Shown one piece after another: positions 868-21,463 of a stretch of DNA of 21,463 nucleotides (its first letter is position 1; each line of letters opens with the position of its first letter). The stretch lies in the IMG/VR virus record IMGVR_UViG_3300021963_000756, positions 1 to 21,463 of that record. One strand, given 5' to 3'. The stretch comes from a virus. The notes under the pieces are model-generated. The model saw only the letters and a program-made list of their open reading frames with translations, was not told where the DNA came from and did no database searches. Made by a program: the position numbers and the translations under genes.

Positions 868-1752
868 TTAACTACACAATTTGACATAATATTGTTTAAA
901 GTTATTTTTCCACAATTGTTTATAATAAATCCACATTGTCTCACAGTCTTCTTTTAGAGCTCGTATCTCCCCCGTGGAAATATTTTTAACTCTCTCGACA
1001 CACTCCTCCCAAGTGTCTCCGTAAATAAATGGTAAGTCATGTATACCTCTAAAAATACCGTGCCAGTAGGAGGGTTTAATCATAAATTGCTTGGAATATG
1101 CTCGCGTGATTGGGATACAACCTGCCTCTAAAGCTTCGTACAGTCGAAAAGAATCCATACTGTCTTGCCCTTCGGGACATAAGGCAAAGGTGCTTTGCCG
1201 AAGCATATTTACGTATTTTTTAGTGCTGAGTCCATCATCAGCGCCAAAACCGCTGCATGTATGTATTTGATTGTTTTTAAATATTTGAAAAGCCTCTAGC
1301 ATCGCCTGCCTTTCTCCGTGCGGCGTTCCTGCGAATGACCAAACCAACGATCGTTCTACTGAATCTTCGGTTTTTAAATATTTAGTAAACTCGCGTTTAT
1401 AACCGAGGCCAAAAAAGCTGACCTTTGGGTGACTTAATTGGTTTGGATGAATGTAATTACGAAGTAGGCCCACACAGTTCGGATCATGCAGCCACTCACA
1501 AGGTTCTAAAAGGTTTTCATCGCTTAATAAAACAATTACGTATCTTTTTCCTTTCTGCCGTAATTCCTCAAGCACATGCCGATAAGGCACAGCGTGGTTA
1601 CAAATAAGAACTGTATTTTTATCTGTTTTTATCTTTTTCCACTCATACTCGATATTTATATGATCCTGGATATCGCTTACTAAATAACTTAACCAATCAG
1701 ATTCGAACAGGTTTTGATCTGATGATAACCATTGAACTCTTACGTCACCCAT
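868..1752 (-). CDS. Exostosin-like glycosyltransferase (GT47-type)
   Basis: The product has 294 residues and no signal peptide. Residues 189-215 carry F-A-L-C-P-E-G-Q-D-S followed by S-F-R-L-Y-E-A-L-E-A-G-C-I-P-I, the nucleotide-sugar binding signature of the exostosin family (retaining GT-B fold enzymes). A preceding segment with S-F-A-G-T (139-143) fits the start of the C-terminal Rossmann lobe. The protein would move a sugar from a nucleotide donor to an unknown acceptor: virion protein, phage DNA or host envelope glycan. The start is ATG at 1752; no Shine-Dalgarno site is visible. The gene is alone on its strand between two plus-strand groups, and its bases are visibly richer in A and T than the genes on either side, which suggests recent acquisition. 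The family call is firm; the acceptor is unknown. Confidence 0.82.
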   Translation of the reverse strand: MGDVRVQWLSSDQNLFESDWLSYLVSDIQDHINIEYEWKKIKTDKNTVLICNHAVPYRHVLEELRQKGKRYVIVLLSDENLLEPCEWLHDPNCVGLLRNYIHPNQLSHPKVSFFGLGYKREFTKYLKTEDSVERSLVWSFAGTPHGERQAMLEAFQIFKNNQIHTCSGFGADDGLSTKKYVNMLRQSTFALCPEGQDSMDSFRLYEALEAGCIPITRAYSKQFMIKPSYWHGIFRGIHDLPFIYGDTWEECVERVKNISTGEIRALKEDCETMWIYYKQLWKNNFKQYYVKLCS

Positions 1753-1800: not shown

Positions 1801-2187
1801 TTGTTGCAGTGGGCATTTTCGTTGGATTGTAAGCATTGTGTCGCCGAGCTTTATCGTGCCGATTCTGCAAAGTTAAACGATGAAGCTTTTGTCCGTGAAG
1901 CCTTGGCTAATGCTGCTGATCTAGCTAACGCTACTCTTATTGACATTCGCACTCACGCATTTGAGCCACAGGGCATAACGGGGTTTGCTCTGCTCGCCGA
2001 ATCCCATATTTCGATCCACACATGGCCCGAATGCGGTTTTGCTGCTATCGACGCTTTTACCTGCGGTGATAAGACTAAACCTGATGTTGCTTGCAGTTAT
2101 TTAGCTGCTACCTTTGAAGCTCGCGGACACAGTATTTCTGTTATTGATAGAGGATCACCAAAAATCTTAAGCAATTCTAACCTGTAA
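1801..2187 (+). CDS. speD: S-adenosylmethionine decarboxylase proenzyme (SpeD, pyruvoyl-dependent)
   Basis: This is a full-length small SpeD (128 residues; bacterial class 1B enzymes have about 115-130). Residues 67-76 read E-S-H-I-S-I-H-T-W-P. Self-cleavage at E67-S68 would turn Ser68 into the pyruvoyl group; His73 and Cys88 (in F-T-C-G-D) match the processing and catalytic residues. The spacings Ser+5=His and Ser+20=Cys are those of the Thermotoga enzyme. The enzyme decarboxylates AdoMet to supply aminopropyl groups for spermidine, although some homologues have switched to ornithine or arginine. No spermidine synthase is visible. A stop codon (TAG) directly precedes the first TTG at 1801, so translation starts at TTG 1801 or just inside it. 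It is divergent from the glycosyltransferase, with 48 bases between them. Confidence 0.92.
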   Translation: MLQWAFSLDCKHCVAELYRADSAKLNDEAFVREALANAADLANATLIDIRTHAFEPQGITGFALLAESHISIHTWPECGFAAIDAFTCGDKTKPDVACSYLAATFEARGHSISVIDRGSPKILSNSNL

Positions 2188-3495: not shown

Positions 3496-3933
3496 ATGTC
3501 TCAGTTCACCAAGAACTTAGAGCTGGACTCGGTTATTAATAGTGGTCTGACCGATCCTTCGCGCCGTACTGAATCCACGCACTTTGATCAGCGTCGCACC
3601 CTCGATGCCAGCGGCGTGGTTGTGGTCGGAGCTTCCTCCCGTGAGTATGCCGCTGATGGCGCTTACGGTATCTCTGATTATTATCAATTAACTTTTAATG
3701 CCACCGGCATCCTCCGAGTGAGCATCCGCAATCAAAACTCCTGCGGCGATGTCATCATTCTTAACTCCGCTGGTTCTCAGGTTCTGACTGCTTCTCCCTC
3801 GAAGTACAGCCCTCGGGCTACCACTGTCGCTAGCACGACTATTAATACCTCTGGCGATTACTACTCCTATATTCAGCTGAAAGGCCGCAGTGGCGCTGAG
3901 TATCGTGTGGGTATCGACGTTACAAGCAGCTGA
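3496..3933 (+). CDS. PPC-like beta-sandwich domain protein (145 aa)
   Basis: After a polar N-terminus of about 45 residues, the rest (about 50-143) reads as a small beta sandwich: D-Y-Y-Q-L-T-F-N-A-T-G-I-L-R-V-S-I, then D-V-I-I-L-N-S-A-G-S, then T-I-N-T-S-G-D-Y-Y-S-Y-I, and finally A-E-Y-R-V-G-I-D-V. This order of strands and the G-D-Y-Y motif resemble the bacterial pre-peptidase C-terminal (PPC) domain, often found in secreted cyanobacterial proteins. There is no signal peptide. The gene sits directly before the endolysin (TGATG overlap), so it may be a virion surface decoration or a partner of lysis; both are inference. ATG 3496 follows a weak GAGGG. Confidence 0.55.
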   Translation: MSQFTKNLELDSVINSGLTDPSRRTESTHFDQRRTLDASGVVVVGASSREYAADGAYGISDYYQLTFNATGILRVSIRNQNSCGDVIILNSAGSQVLTASPSKYSPRATTVASTTINTSGDYYSYIQLKGRSGAEYRVGIDVTSS

Positions 3934-5171
3934 TGAAAACGTCCCCAAGTGGGGTCGCTTTTATTAAGCAGTTTGAAGGACTGGAGTTACATTCGTATCA
4001 ATGCCAGGCGGGAGTCTGGTCTATTGGATACGGTACGACTGGTCCGGATATTGGCCCCGGTATGCTAATCACCAAGGAGGAAGCCGATCGCTTGTTCGAG
4101 CGCGACCTGGCTTTTTTCGAGCAAGGTGTTCGTGATTGTTTAAAAGTACAAGTTAACCAGAACGAGTTTGATGCTCTTGTAAGTTTTGCTTACAACGTCG
4201 GTCTTGGCGCTTTTGGTTCCTCCACACTTCTACGGTTACTTAACGACGGAGCGAGTCGCTCAGTTATCGCATCTGAGTTTCTTCGCTGGATTAAAGCTGA
4301 CGGAAAACCAAGCGAAGGCTTAAAAAATCGTCGGGAAAAGGAAAAGCAGTTATTTTTGTCGAAGCCTATTAACGCGGCCTTGGCGCACTCCATCCTCGCT
4401 CAGCGCGACACGTGGCTGAAACGTAAGCCGCTGCCGTCTAGTTCGTTAGCGGCGGAAGAGAAACTTTTCGTGCCCAAGGGGTCTGCCCACGTCTGGCAAA
4501 CCATCACTATGGTGCCGGGAGAAACGCATTATAAAGTTCATTTAGAGGCCCAGCCGGATAAACCCTGGTGGTTCTTTCCGAATCACTGGAAGATTATTAA
4601 TGATCCCAAGCCTGAAGTTCAGGATGCTCCCAAGCAAGCTGAGTCTTTAGTTCTGGATGTTCCGTATTACTCTCAGCGTGATAATTCGCGGGATCCGATG
4701 CGGACTTGTTTCTCAAGTTCGTGCGCGATGCTGCTGAAATACTTGAAGCCGAACAGCATTCGTGGTGACGATGACTATATAAATACTGTTTTTAAACACG
4801 GCGATACTGTTTCAGCTTCGGCGCAATTAGCTGCTTTAGAAGATTACGGTCTCGCCGCTGACTTTAAGCAAGATGGTGGTTGGGGCGATATTGACGCTCA
4901 GTTGGCTCGCGGGATCCCTGTCCCTATCGGTATTCTGCACAAAGGTCCGGTCACTAATCCCACCGGCGGTGGCCACTGGATCATTGTTATTGGGCGCACC
5001 GAAACGGGTGATGGTTACGTTGTCCATGATCCTTTTGGTGATCTGGATTTGATTAACGGCGGTTACTTATCGGCGGACGGCAAGGCTAAGGTGTATTCGA
5101 AGAAAAACCTCGGCCCTCGGTGGATGGTTGAGTCCAACCGAAGCGGCTGGTACATCAAGGCTCACAAGTGA
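3933..5171 (+). CDS. Two-domain endolysin: GH24 muramidase plus C39-like cysteine peptidase
   Basis: The 412-residue protein has three parts. Residues 1-145 form a T4/P22-type lysozyme (GH24): Glu15 in F-E-G, Cys24 at the place of T4 Asp20, and Ser30 at the place of T4 Thr26 (V-W-S-I-G-Y-G). Asp or Cys at the second site is normal in the family; Ser at the third is less usual. Residues 175-225 form a Trp-rich linker domain of unknown role. Residues 238-410 look like a C39-type papain-fold peptidase: T-C259-F-S-S-S-C-A-M-L-L, G-G-G-H348-W, and H-D366-P-F-G as Cys-His-Asp. It should cut both glycan and peptide bonds of peptidoglycan. There is no signal peptide, so export would need a holin. It overlaps both neighbours by one base. 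Confidence 0.85.
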   Translation: MKTSPSGVAFIKQFEGLELHSYQCQAGVWSIGYGTTGPDIGPGMLITKEEADRLFERDLAFFEQGVRDCLKVQVNQNEFDALVSFAYNVGLGAFGSSTLLRLLNDGASRSVIASEFLRWIKADGKPSEGLKNRREKEKQLFLSKPINAALAHSILAQRDTWLKRKPLPSSSLAAEEKLFVPKGSAHVWQTITMVPGETHYKVHLEAQPDKPWWFFPNHWKIINDPKPEVQDAPKQAESLVLDVPYYSQRDNSRDPMRTCFSSSCAMLLKYLKPNSIRGDDDYINTVFKHGDTVSASAQLAALEDYGLAADFKQDGGWGDIDAQLARGIPVPIGILHKGPVTNPTGGGHWIIVIGRTETGDGYVVHDPFGDLDLINGGYLSADGKAKVYSKKNLGPRWMVESNRSGWYIKAHK

Positions 5172-11614: not shown

Positions 11615-11977
11615 TTAAAAAGTCAGAGAAGGGTGATTAGGTGGTGTGTAGTTATCGTCGTCATCATCTTCTTCAATATCATCCTCATCTTCTTCCTCTT
11701 CATCCTCGTCCACAAAGAATTCAGATTTCTGATATTCGAATTCCTTGCTACGGGAATTCAAGTCTTCGGAGAGGCACATGCCTGCGCAAAAACTTTCAGT
11801 AACAATTTCCGCGCACTCAACGGCAGATCGGGCTTCCCCCTCAGGGGATACGCACTCTTGCAGGAGCTGATTGGAAACCAGAAGAGAACAGATCTTGTCG
11901 AGTTTGGCATTAGTTATTGTCAGTTGATCCAGGATTGATTTCTGGAACGCCTCAAATTTTTGTGATCTTGATGTCAT
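11615..11977 (-). CDS. Protein with a long acidic tail, unknown (120 aa)
   Basis: Residues 1-60 are helical, with I-T-N-A-K-L-D-K-I-C-S-L-L, a possible short coiled coil. Residues 88-110 are almost only Asp and Glu, followed by a short aromatic and Pro end, P-P-N-H-P-S-L-T-F. Acidic tails ending in Phe recall SSB-type protein-interaction tips or DNA mimics, so it could bind a replication partner or a basic protein; neither is shown. The ATG at 11977 overlaps the stop of the upstream methyltransferase-like gene as ATGA. It precedes the RecB-like nuclease, with the inverted repeat between them. The GAA/GAT-rich tail gives a low-complexity stretch at about 11640-11720. Confidence 0.7.
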   Translation of the reverse strand: MTSRSQKFEAFQKSILDQLTITNAKLDKICSLLVSNQLLQECVSPEGEARSAVECAEIVTESFCAGMCLSEDLNSRSKEFEYQKSEFFVDEDEEEEDEDDIEEDDDDDNYTPPNHPSLTF

Positions 11978-12516
11978 TCTGTGAGCGGAGGTAAAGGTTC
12001 AACGCGGTCCCAATCTAAGCCGAAGCTTACATGGGTGCCATCATGCCAGTTCTCTGGCTTTTGGAACACGAACCAGCAGCTAGTAACTGAGTCCCGTGTG
12101 CTTCCCAATGCCCGGAACTTCGGACGTGGGTTTAGCACGATCATATTACTGAGTTTGTTTTTAAGGAGAAAAGTTTTTCTGCGAGCTACAGGTTCAATAA
12201 AGGAAAGGCGATCAAGAACCGCAATTCCTTGGGCAGCAATCTGCATACCGTACTCCAATATGTATTCGCTGTACTCTGACAGTCCTGTAGTGTTTGCGAT
12301 TACCCAATCGTAATTTTTTTGTTTCTCGGATACCCACCATATTGGATCCGTTAAATTTTCTTCGCTTTCGTTTCGGGCGACAGCATAGTTGTGCGACCGC
12401 AGTTGATCGCTAAGGATCCCTAGCGGGTCATGAGGAACCAACACTGTGCCTGTTATGTAAGCGTGCTTGATCAGCGCGTGGGTTACGCCGTTCGGGATGC
12501 TGTAGAAGTCCGACAA
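11974..12516 (-). CDS. Degenerate adenine-methyltransferase-like protein (180 aa)
   Basis: The layout matches short phage N6-adenine methyltransferase relatives: F-Y-S-I-P-N-G-V-T-H-A-L at the N-terminus (normally ...P-T-P...), a first strand T-V-L-V-P-H-D (24-30), the motif IV strand D-W-V-I-A-N (70-75), R-L-S-F-I-E-P (103-109), N-P-R-P (129-132) and D-S-V-T-S-C-W-F-V-F-Q-K (142-153). However, motif IV, normally N-P-P-Y/F, reads N75-T-T-G78, and the glycine-rich AdoMet loop after the first strand is replaced by P-H-D-P-L-G. The catalytic and cofactor sites therefore appear lost, and the protein may bind DNA or regulate. The start is TTG at 12516, just after an in-frame stop, with AGG 5 bases upstream. 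It is divergent from nblA. Confidence 0.62.
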   Translation of the reverse strand: MSDFYSIPNGVTHALIKHAYITGTVLVPHDPLGILSDQLRSHNYAVARNESEENLTDPIWWVSEKQKNYDWVIANTTGLSEYSEYILEYGMQIAAQGIAVLDRLSFIEPVARRKTFLLKNKLSNMIVLNPRPKFRALGSTRDSVTSCWFVFQKPENWHDGTHVSFGLDWDRVEPLPPLTE

Positions 12517-12588
12517 AACCTGTCGTAGTCAGGGTTTGCTGAGCTTAGCCAATCTGAGCGGGCGCGTCCAGTAAATAATGAGTATAGT
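12511..12588. promoter_or_regulatory. Divergent control region between the methyltransferase-like gene and nblA
   Basis: CGACA (12511-12515) and TGTCG (12521-12525) form a 5-base stem that includes the TTG start (12514-12516) of the minus-strand gene. AAACC (12516-12520) can also pair with GGTTT (12533-12537). TATAGT at 12583-12588 is a candidate -10 box for nblA, placing a start about 16-20 bases before ATG 12611. No clear -35 box is seen. Confidence 0.35.
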
Positions 12589-12610
12589 AAGCACATACGC
12601 TCTTAAGATT

Positions 12611-12829
12611 ATGTTAAATCTGGAGTGGACTACTACCGAGCAGAGTTTTACGCATCAGCGCGTAATGATGGACGCTCGGAAGCTTGATAAAGATGACCTG
12701 CTAGAGATTTTCGAAGCTATTCACCAGCAGTATCAGATCCGAGGGCACCTGTTTTCTAAGTTGATTGCTTGGTGTGCTCGTAACGGCGTAGAGCTTCCTC
12801 CTTTTGAGGAGCTGTTAGAACCCAACTAA
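12611..12829 (+). CDS. nblA: NblA-like phycobilisome degradation protein
   Basis: The 72-residue product lines up without gaps over about 44 residues with remembered cyanobacterial NblA: it starts E-Q-x-F and shares an Asp, a Gln and an Arg at the same spacing (D+18, Q+30, R+34 from the Glu), with hydrophobic residues at matching helix positions (M/L, F/I, L/I, Y/F). NblA is a small helical adaptor that links phycobiliproteins to ClpC protease so that light-harvesting phycobilisomes are degraded; phages such as Microcystis phage Ma-LMM01 carry it. ATG 12611 gives the usual short N-terminus; an in-frame ATG at 12578 would add 11 residues but overlaps the candidate promoter. It is the only plus-strand gene in the replication block and overlaps the end of the opposite gene by 74 bases. 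Confidence 0.66.
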   Translation: MLNLEWTTTEQSFTHQRVMMDARKLDKDDLLEIFEAIHQQYQIRGHLFSKLIAWCARNGVELPPFEELLEPN

Positions 12830-13178
12830 TTTGATCATCCTGGGTTATTTTCATAAACCCTAAGCGCGTAACGTATTTAGATAACGTCTGAGCTTTCTCA
12901 TGATCGTTGACGATTAAAACATGATCCCCCGTGGGAATTAAACGGAGGACGTAATAAACGTTTTGCAGGCAAGCTCGAAGCTGCCTCAAGGATTTTTTGC
13001 GCTTTTCGTTTTGCGCTCGACGTGTCCTTTTGTTAGGTCGTCTCTGATACCAGTCGTTGCTGGCTCGTTTTGACCTATTGATTATCAGACCTAGGTTCCA
13101 GATTCCTTCTGTGATTACGCTTGCGTAAACGGAGCACCAAGCGTCCCCTATTTTTGTCCGGCGTACTAGTTGTTTCAC
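12756..13178 (-). CDS. Basic unknown protein (140 aa)
   Basis: The N-terminal 70 residues are very basic (R-R-P-N-K-R-T-R-R-A-Q-N-E-K-R-K-K), so nucleic acid binding is likely. The C-terminal half has a small alpha/beta look: H-V-L-I-V-N-D-H-E-K-A-Q-T-L-S-K-Y-V, then G-F-M-K-I and I-S-W-V-L-T. No known family is recognised. The start is GTG at 13178, immediately after the terminator at 13182-13205, so it may be expressed by read-through or from a promoter not seen. Its last 24 codons lie opposite the end of nblA; the composition and strand pattern of the tail look protein-like, so I keep both genes. Confidence 0.62.
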   Translation of the reverse strand: MKQLVRRTKIGDAWCSVYASVITEGIWNLGLIINRSKRASNDWYQRRPNKRTRRAQNEKRKKSLRQLRACLQNVYYVLRLIPTGDHVLIVNDHEKAQTLSKYVTRLGFMKITQDDQISWVLTAPQKEEALRRYEHTKQST

Positions 13179-13226: not shown

Positions 13227-14048
13227 TCAGAACTCCAGTCCGAGAGCTTTCGCCTGTTCTTCAGTCAGTTCGAGGGCCTTCTTAGCTTTTGGCGCAGGAG
13301 GCGGATTGCTCTCCTCATCATCAGCCACATCAGCAGCTTTGAGAGCTTTAGCAGGAACTCCAGCAGAAGGGAGAGATCGCTCAGCAGGCGCCCCACGCGT
13401 TGCCGCAAACTGGGCCTTGATCTCCGCATGATCTGAGCCAAGTGGAAGCTCAACCAGATCCGATCCAGGAATGTGAGACTTGAGGGCGGCAGTGATGAGG
13501 TTTGTGCCCGTGGAGGAAAGCCACGCATTTACGTCTTCAATTAGCTTGGTTTCGTCATCGCTTGCTGCGGGTCGGTCAGCAAATTCAAGCGCGTTAAAGT
13601 TAATCTTCGCGCCGTCAGCTCCGGTAATAGGATCCCGTTCGTTAAAACTACGGGTCACAAATTTCGTTGCTGTAACCACCGAGGCACAGTTGATTCGGTT
13701 GTTGTAAAGCGTTTGGAAGTAACTAATGAAGTTCTTCTGCGACGATTTACCCGAGATCATCGAGGTGGTGACGCACCGAGGCGGAAGCAGCCTGTGGTTG
13801 GGGGAGACGCCGATATACGCGATCCTCAGGAACTCCTCCTGATTTCGCAGACCGAGATTACCGAAGTAAGGGGTAAAGCCCAACAGGATGAACTCGATGG
13901 GAATACCGTTGTCGTTCTTATCGACGATTGCGCTGTCGGGGTCGACATCAGACTTCCAACGGCGTGCTTGAAGGTCGATCCTTAAAGTGTGCGGAGGAAC
14001 GTTGCAGAGAATTTCGTCTGCGGAGAATTGGCCAGCGATAAAAACCAT
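13227..14048 (-). CDS. Unknown protein next to SSB, Ala/Pro-rich tail (273 aa)
   Basis: Residues 1-170 look like a folded domain with several beta strands (I-P-I-E-F-I-L-L-G-F-T-P-Y-F, E-F-L-R-I-A-Y-I-G-V, K-I-N-F-N-A-L-E-F-A). Residues 205-260 form a flexible Ala/Pro/Glu-rich linker, and the end is L-E-L-T-E-E-Q-A-K-A-L-G-L-E-F, an acidic hydrophobic tip. A folded domain, flexible linker and conserved tip is the plan of DNA-binding proteins that recruit partners. Its place 9 bases after SSB and before a terminator supports a replication or recombination role, but no family is recognised. The start is ATG 14048, with no clear Shine-Dalgarno site. Confidence 0.72.
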   Translation of the reverse strand: MVFIAGQFSADEILCNVPPHTLRIDLQARRWKSDVDPDSAIVDKNDNGIPIEFILLGFTPYFGNLGLRNQEEFLRIAYIGVSPNHRLLPPRCVTTSMISGKSSQKNFISYFQTLYNNRINCASVVTATKFVTRSFNERDPITGADGAKINFNALEFADRPAASDDETKLIEDVNAWLSSTGTNLITAALKSHIPGSDLVELPLGSDHAEIKAQFAATRGAPAERSLPSAGVPAKALKAADVADDEESNPPPAPKAKKALELTEEQAKALGLEF

Positions 14049-20425: not shown

Positions 20426-21463
20426 TTAACGTAGACAACGTTGGATTGCGTCTATTGTCGCATCCGGGTTGTACAGATTTACTGAGTAAAGCTCATCGCT
20501 GAACTTTTTGCAAACCTCTGGTATTTCCGAATTGATGCAAACAGTGCTCCATTGTACGCCGGTGTTTTGTTTGAAGTGATTAAGCCGACGAATAAAGTTT
20601 TCGTGTACTTCACTGTTTCCGTCCGTGATCATTAAAACATCAGCTCGCTCACTAATCTTGGCGCTGTCCAACGCGTGGCAGATAACGGCATTAAAACTAG
20701 TGCCGCCTCCTAGAGTCCACGTTCCGATAAAGTCCAGCAACTTGCTGTTGTCGGCTCGTTCGTCTTTCAGTTGAACTGATCCGTTGATTCGTGTATCGAA
20801 AAGATGCACTTGAATTTCACGCTTTTCCTTGAGTGCTTCTTCGGCAATGACGAAGGCGATTGCTTTGCTCCACACCTCTGACTCGCCACTCATGGAGCCA
20901 GATACATCGATGTACATGACAATAGGCCCTTTGCCTATGTCTTTTCTGTGTGATGTATAGTCTTTGGTGAGAATAGTTTTTTGAGAATACTTAAGTGCGA
21001 ATAATGCTTGTCCTTCGGGTGTAGCAGCGAGCGCTACTTCCGCTGGGAAAGCTTTGGTAACATCATTACCGAACTGAGCTCCAGTAATCGCTTCGTACCG
21101 GTCGTTTATTTTGCGAGCTCGTTTGCGTTCTTGCCAGATCCGACGTAACGCGCCGAGCCTTTTTGCCAAAGTCCGAAGATCCTTGTTGTTCTTTAGTTTT
21201 TTAGCTAAAGCTTTCTTAGCTTCAAGATCCGCACCGTGGGAACCAGCACCTTCTTTATCGCCGTAGAAGCTGCTTAACGCTTCGCTTGTTTCATCGCTTT
21301 CTTGGATTGTTTTGTCGACGACTCGATGTGACTGGCTCTGGATTTTGTCCTTCGCTTTTTGTATTGCTTCGGTAATTGCTTGACCGAGTTTTTTACCTTC
21401 GCGCCTCAGCTGCTCAGCCTTCTCTTTGTCACCGTCTTGAACAGCTTGCTGATACTGTTCGCG
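20426..21463 (-). CDS. VWA-domain protein (ViaA/CoxE-like), 5' end cut by window edge
   Basis: The frame is open to the right edge, so at least 345 residues are coded here; a TTG at 21169 is inside the gene. The upstream part is a Lys/Glu/Gln-rich helical region, then A-L-A-K-K-L-K-N-N and L-A-K-R-L-G-A-L-R-R-I. The C-terminal VWA domain has a complete metal site: D-V-S-G-S-M-S (DxSxS), G-G-G-T-S and M-I-T-D-G-N. The helical lead plus VWA resembles ViaA/CoxE-type proteins, which in bacteria and some phages work with a MoxR-family AAA+ ATPase as a chaperone-like pair. Such a partner would be expected beyond the right edge. Its target in the phage is unknown. Confidence 0.85.
   Translation of the reverse strand, partial: REQYQQAVQDGDKEKAEQLRREGKKLGQAITEAIQKAKDKIQSQSHRVVDKTIQESDETSEALSSFYGDKEGAGSHGADLEAKKALAKKLKNNKDLRTLAKRLGALRRIWQERKRARKINDRYEAITGAQFGNDVTKAFPAEVALAATPEGQALFALKYSQKTILTKDYTSHRKDIGKGPIVMYIDVSGSMSGESEVWSKAIAFVIAEEALKEKREIQVHLFDTRINGSVQLKDERADNSKLLDFIGTWTLGGGTSFNAVICHALDSAKISERADVLMITDGNSEVHENFIRRLNHFKQNTGVQWSTVCINSEIPEVCKKFSDELYSVNLYNPDATIDAIQRCLR

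Follow-up and report, generated by a model that had tools for sequence, protein, structure and literature searches.

A divergent NblA-like gene at a conserved position in cyanophages related to S-EIV1

NblA is the cyanobacterial protein that starts the dismantling of the light-harvesting antenna. It links ClpC, through its N-terminal motif, to phycobiliproteins, through its C-terminal part; an alternative proposal is that NblA acts by mimicry and thereby loosens the rods (PMC4103541, PMC7966870). Phage nblA, which the first-pass annotation of the present sequence described as known in few phages, now has a longer list that includes Ma-LMM01, MaMV-DC, PaV-LD, 14 cyanopodoviruses, S-TIM5, S-SCSM1 and others (PMC9602691). 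When tested in hosts, NblA proteins from other phage lineages degrade phycobilisomes or deplete phycobilins (PMC9602691, PMC4103541). In Ma-LMM01, nblA overlaps a neighbouring gene and is located among nucleotide and DNA-processing genes (PMC4103541), and NblA of S-SCSM1 was detected only by distant-homology methods, as is the case here (PMC9602691). For the S-EIV1 group, a survey of environmental genomes gave hli and ptoX only, and no nblA (PMC5332604), and an S-EIV1-like prophage has been named without nblA (PMC9239245). The Pfam NblA model gave no match in S-SCSM1, and we liken the NblA proteins of S-SCSM1, S-TIM5 and the cyanopodoviruses, which belong to different phage groups, to the present protein by description and not by sequence. 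Divergent NblA proteins of marine cyanophages were reportedly described by Nadel et al. in 2019.

We analyzed a window of 21,463 nucleotides, positions 1 to 21,463 of the virus record IMGVR_UViG_3300021963_000756 (Table 1). The open reading frame of 83 amino acids at 12578-12829 on the plus strand is present as annotated, with a product then given as 72-83 residues; however, comparison with IMG/VR relatives (8 close ones first, then 51 viral contigs encoding relatives of the gene, found by profile search) showed that the conserved protein begins with MLNLEW and has 72 residues. The start at 12578 was ruled out, because several relatives have GTG in place of this upstream ATG or lack it, and stops interrupt the stretch in some; the gene therefore starts at the ATG at 12611. 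The dN/dS ratio was approximately 0.07-0.17 against relatives with estimable dS, and approximately 0.4, based on few changes, against the nearest relative, L002. The NblA-like reading frame is a real gene under purifying selection and not a chance ORF. Most relatives encode a longer C-terminus, while the window and L002 stop early (TAA, 12827-12829 in the window); the codons for F-D-H-P behind this stop are apparently a remnant of the tail that the relatives kept.

Table 1. Features of the window considered in this study.
Feature	Position	Strand	Evidence
SpeD (S-adenosylmethionine decarboxylase)	1801-2187	+	DNA up to 78% identical to cyanobacterial genes
Divergently transcribed neighbour g11974, unknown function, slot marker	11974-12516	-	Gene order
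-10-like element TATAGT	12583-12588	+	TANA(G/T)T in 10/10 aligned sequences
Conserved leader AAGATT right before the start codon	12605-12610	+	Invariant in 10-sequence DNA alignment
NblA-like gene, 72 aa, ATG start	12611-12829	+	Start from relatives; purifying selection
NblA-homologous domain (residues 7-53)	12629-12769	+	hhalign, 47-50 gapless columns; AlphaFold2 helices; column table
E-Q-x-F motif (residues 10-13), conserved N-terminal NblA motif	12638-12649	+	Column table
Converging neighbour, 74-base overlap with the NblA-like gene	12756-13178	-	Gene order
Extension at the C-terminus, specific to the lineage and beyond the NblA domain (W54-C55 ... L62-P63 ... L68)	12770-12826	+	43-protein column table
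F-D-H-P codons (TTT GAT CAT CCT) past the stop	12830-12841	+	Sequence compared with relatives' tail
Conserved replication-block gene g13227, second slot marker	13227-14048	-	Gene order

When the DNA of ten upstream regions was aligned, the candidate -10 box that had been proposed for the gene proved to be conserved, although the sigma-70 promoter scan of the upstream region found no -35 element and no full promoter. Since no -35 was found, the promoter amounts to a conserved -10-like element only. Own expression from this element, and its timing, would form part of the mechanism proposed below.

The window protein alone had no NblA match in Pfam (PF04485), NCBIfam or PHROGs, and single-sequence searches in general were unproductive (Pfam, PHROGs, phage tblastn); its whole family is absent from NCBIfam and PHROGs. 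A search of the single protein against the PDB gave a hint of the NblA structure 3cs5 (E 1.5). With relatives, the matches to PF04485 rose from 3/9 to 15/25 and 27/43 members (best E 0.018, 3.5e-4 and 1.3e-5), and growing alignments brought 3cs5 to E 0.78, 0.018 and 0.0028 in PDB profile searches, the last of which placed 3cs5 and 1ojh, both NblA crystal structures, as the top two. When the phage family was aligned by hhalign to an independent set of 39 NblA proteins, drawn from cyanobacterial genomes and from two phages (Ma-LMM01 and PaV-LD), the probability was 92.9% and then 94.3%, with 50 gapless columns and P 9.5e-8. The score of 39.5 compares with a maximum of 21.8 in 300 column shuffles of the phage alignment, and that of a smaller phage set, 35.3, with a maximum of 22.7 in 400 shuffles. 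A generic helical profile as the cause of the match was rejected by the column shuffles and by reversal. In the reciprocal search, in which 386 cyanobacterial genomes were searched with the phage profile, the best two matches (G046:C1:4091363 and G077:C1:1946936) are proteins that the Pfam NblA model scores at 66 and 54 bits. The E-value of this search is per genome and modest; the evidence is that both best matches fall on NblA, in register.

A scan with a neighbour gene, starting at the lineage's divergent end, found two further contigs, L417 (a sister phage) and L451, whose genes in the same slot and orientation exceed the curated PF04485 cut-off of 25 bits, with 41.7 bits (1.6e-10) and 31.1 bits, respectively. 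Over 65 amino acids without a gap, the window and L417 proteins share 43% identity, and the L417 protein is 33% identical to a cyanobacterial NblA over 48 amino acids. Because L417 bridges both, and because synteny is shared, homology between the window protein and NblA is established, and we regard descent of the window gene from nblA as very likely. The Pfam check proposed for the annotation failed with the single window sequence but succeeded with its same-slot orthologues; the missing match is therefore a problem of sensitivity, and the original reading of the gene as NblA-like held. An unrelated small helical early protein, such as a regulator in the replication block, could also come to resemble NblA by convergence of amphipathic helices, and the missing curated-threshold match of the single sequence would fit this, as would weak matches to other families, e.g. 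to DUF4158 in 20/43 members (residues 26-68 of the window protein, covering the second helix and the tail). However, passing orthologues, far lower scores of shuffles and the fact that NblA ranked first in the Pfam, PDB and reciprocal searches largely refute this explanation, which we consider highly improbable.

The homologous region contains the E-Q-x-F motif, in which E10, Q11 and F13 are invariant in all 43 members of the phage family and occur in 39, 39 and 37 of the 39 NblA proteins, respectively. The gapless alignment of about 44 residues that had been noted from the sequence was reproduced at about 45 residues by the PDB search, hhalign and the column table. AlphaFold2 placed helices at residues 9-22 and 27-58 of the window protein (pLDDT 79.8, pTM 0.47) and at the corresponding residues 15-28 and 33-63 of L417, which was run without an alignment. 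The predicted fold is thus a two-helix hairpin (helix-loop-helix), the helix pair expected at first and not some other fold. Foldseek/VIA found no fold match for the model of the window protein, but hairpins of this size (72 residues) and pTM (0.47) are difficult to match.

The window protein and cyanobacterial NblA (PF04485; 3cs5, 1ojh) have in common the gapless domain of about 47 residues, E-Q-x-F, the two-helix hairpin and a basic-acidic pair that opens helix 2. In contrast, the window protein is about 20% identical to cyanobacterial NblA, falls under the Pfam cut-off, carries an extra W-C...LP tail and lacks the helix-2 lysine. We take L51 and K53 (Anabaena numbering) to be the C-terminal phycobiliprotein-binding residues of NblA, and the role of K53, near the end of helix 2, was reportedly addressed by Bienert et al. 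in 2006. The L51 position is kept in 41/43 family members, whereas position 53 varies and is Ala in the window protein, not the Lys of NblA. In L417, the end of helix 2 reads LVKH, close to the LLKH/FLKH of cyanobacterial NblA, and H-C stands in place of W-C in a tail that is otherwise of the same kind. NblA of Ma-LMM01 and PaV-LD is likewise borne by cyanophages; unlike the window protein, it passes Pfam easily (52 and 45 bits), belongs to other phage lineages and is without the tail.

As first described, the NblA-like gene lies on the plus strand among minus-strand neighbours and overlaps the opposite gene by 74 bases. Neighbour mapping showed a single gene order across relatives, although the converging neighbour was undetected in some that retain the NblA-like gene. 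The gene occupies the same slot on the opposite strand in 80/80 loci found via g11974. Among 80 loci found via g13227, it is present in 72, and in the remaining 8 the contig breaks off at most 460 bases from g13227, which gives the same slot in 72/72 informative loci. In the scan of the divergent end, 60/70 newly fetched loci carry the gene, the rest being early-ending contigs or members of one clade; the locus sets of these scans overlap, and the counts are not independent. Neither the NblA-like gene nor g11974 was found in this clade (L400, L402, L403, L404, L406 and L407). In L402, L406 and L407, a large ORF on the same strand follows the slot beside g13227.

These results show that the NblA-like gene is a syntenic core gene of the lineage, missing only from one divergent clade. 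The first-pass annotation had read it as a moron inserted into the phage genome, and a recently captured host nblA under its own promoter would indeed agree with the opposite strand, the -10-like element and the overlap with the neighbour. This idea does not survive the constancy of the slot in phages whose polymerases, among those measured, are about 59% to 85% identical to that of the window, nor the fact that a scan covering 84,980 species of bacteria and archaea found no relative of the gene; we give it almost no credence. Recent capture is refuted for the lineage, and the original capture of nblA must therefore be old.

The relative G005 (87 kb), which has the gene order of the window, encodes a terminase and a major head protein that are 52% and 69% identical, respectively, to those of Synechococcus phage S-EIV1. 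The window fragment yielded no head gene, and its placement in the lineage comes from the gene order in common with G005; the best match of its primase is that of S-EIV1. Judged from these sequences, the phages that carry the NblA-like gene belong to an S-EIV1-like cyanophage lineage, which is widespread (136 contigs in one scan). The related cyanophages with the gene are mostly uncultured, and we know of no isolate with an orthologue of the window type. Because the terminase and head protein of G005 and the primase of the window resemble those of S-EIV1, the host is most likely a Synechococcus-like cyanobacterium, which would suit an NblA function. A DNA-identity search against cyanobacterial genomes matched mainly SpeD, most strongly in genomes of 2-3 Mb, which may be a weak hint of the host; the same search found no prophage. 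Scans for tRNA genes were without hits.

Other genes of these phages were also observed. The window encodes an Exostosin (GT47)-like glycosyltransferase (868-1752, minus strand), a phage lysozyme domain fused to a C39-like peptidase domain (3933-5171, plus strand) and, near its end, a CoxE-type VWA protein (20426-21169, minus strand). In the same region of G005, an ORF at 83273-84460 (L317) has the P-loop-like GVPGTGKS and recalls MoxR-VWA chaperone pairs.

A second small NblA-like protein (LTLEDEFVLTRIR...) was flagged by the Pfam search in G003, G005 and G007. This second family was found in 59 contigs (e.g. L055:1459-1710, L056:1432-1683 on the minus strand, and L075; L468-L526), in the same phage lineage and away from the replication block. 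It is present in all nine type-I contigs of at least 60 kb among those listed and was not found in the window fragment. Its alignment with NblA reached an hhalign probability of 88% and a score of 32, against a maximum of 21.7 in 300 shuffles, while the single members tested remained below the Pfam cut-off (best approximately 18.6-18.9 bits). The second family is probably kin of NblA, with less certainty than the first. Since the two phage families align poorly to each other, we do not claim a duplication within the phage.

S-EIV1 is the nearest cultured phage of the lineage found. It had no match to the NblA-like family of the window or to its two neighbour genes; its ORF 73902-74222 (L319:33902-34222; AHV82245.1), annotated as hypothetical, scored 20 bits with our own NblA model and 16.3 bits with that of Pfam. 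The AHV82245.1 protein looks NblA-like and has a long acidic tail.

We favor the interpretation that the window gene is a divergent NblA orthologue, core to S-EIV1-like cyanophages, whose product is a phycobilisome adaptor for ClpC, and we consider this probable. The protein would form the NblA helix-loop-helix dimer, its E-Q-x-F end would bind the host ClpC chaperone, and its second helix would bind phycobiliproteins. Host phycobilisomes would then be fed to the Clp protease and lost, which may free amino acids, reduce light absorption during infection, or both. It is thus plausible, as first suggested, that the gene lets the phage dismantle host phycobilisomes. Alternatively, a protein that is NblA by descent may have been retargeted: it would still bind ClpC, but the W-C...LP tail would serve as a new surface for substrates, and the protein delivered, or shielded, would be a different one from the host or the phage. 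W54, C55, P63 and L68 are invariant in 43/43 phage proteins outside the NblA domain, position 53 is variable, and the phycobilisome role could fall to the second family, which these genomes also carry. However, L417, with the most NblA-like domain, has the same kind of tail together with LVKH, and nothing points to another target; we regard retargeting as unlikely.

NblA1 and NblA2 of Synechocystis have been described as a heterodimer. By analogy, S-EIV1-like phages might fix two unlike NblA-type adaptors per genome, the window type and the LTLEDEF family, which could act jointly, perhaps as a heterodimer, or divide their targets, with the W-C...LP tail giving the window type a new ClpC substrate. 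We offer this as a speculative idea and regard it as unlikely.

What is apparently new is the divergent family with its conserved W-C...LP tail and its core status, together with the likely pair of families. NblA of the window type lies below the thresholds of annotation libraries, and the alignment and the bridging sequences L417 and L451 will help others to find such genes. Earlier reports treat phage NblA mostly as an accessory gene of scattered occurrence; the form described here is fixed in a widespread cyanophage lineage, which suggests that dismantling of the antenna is a standing part of infection there.
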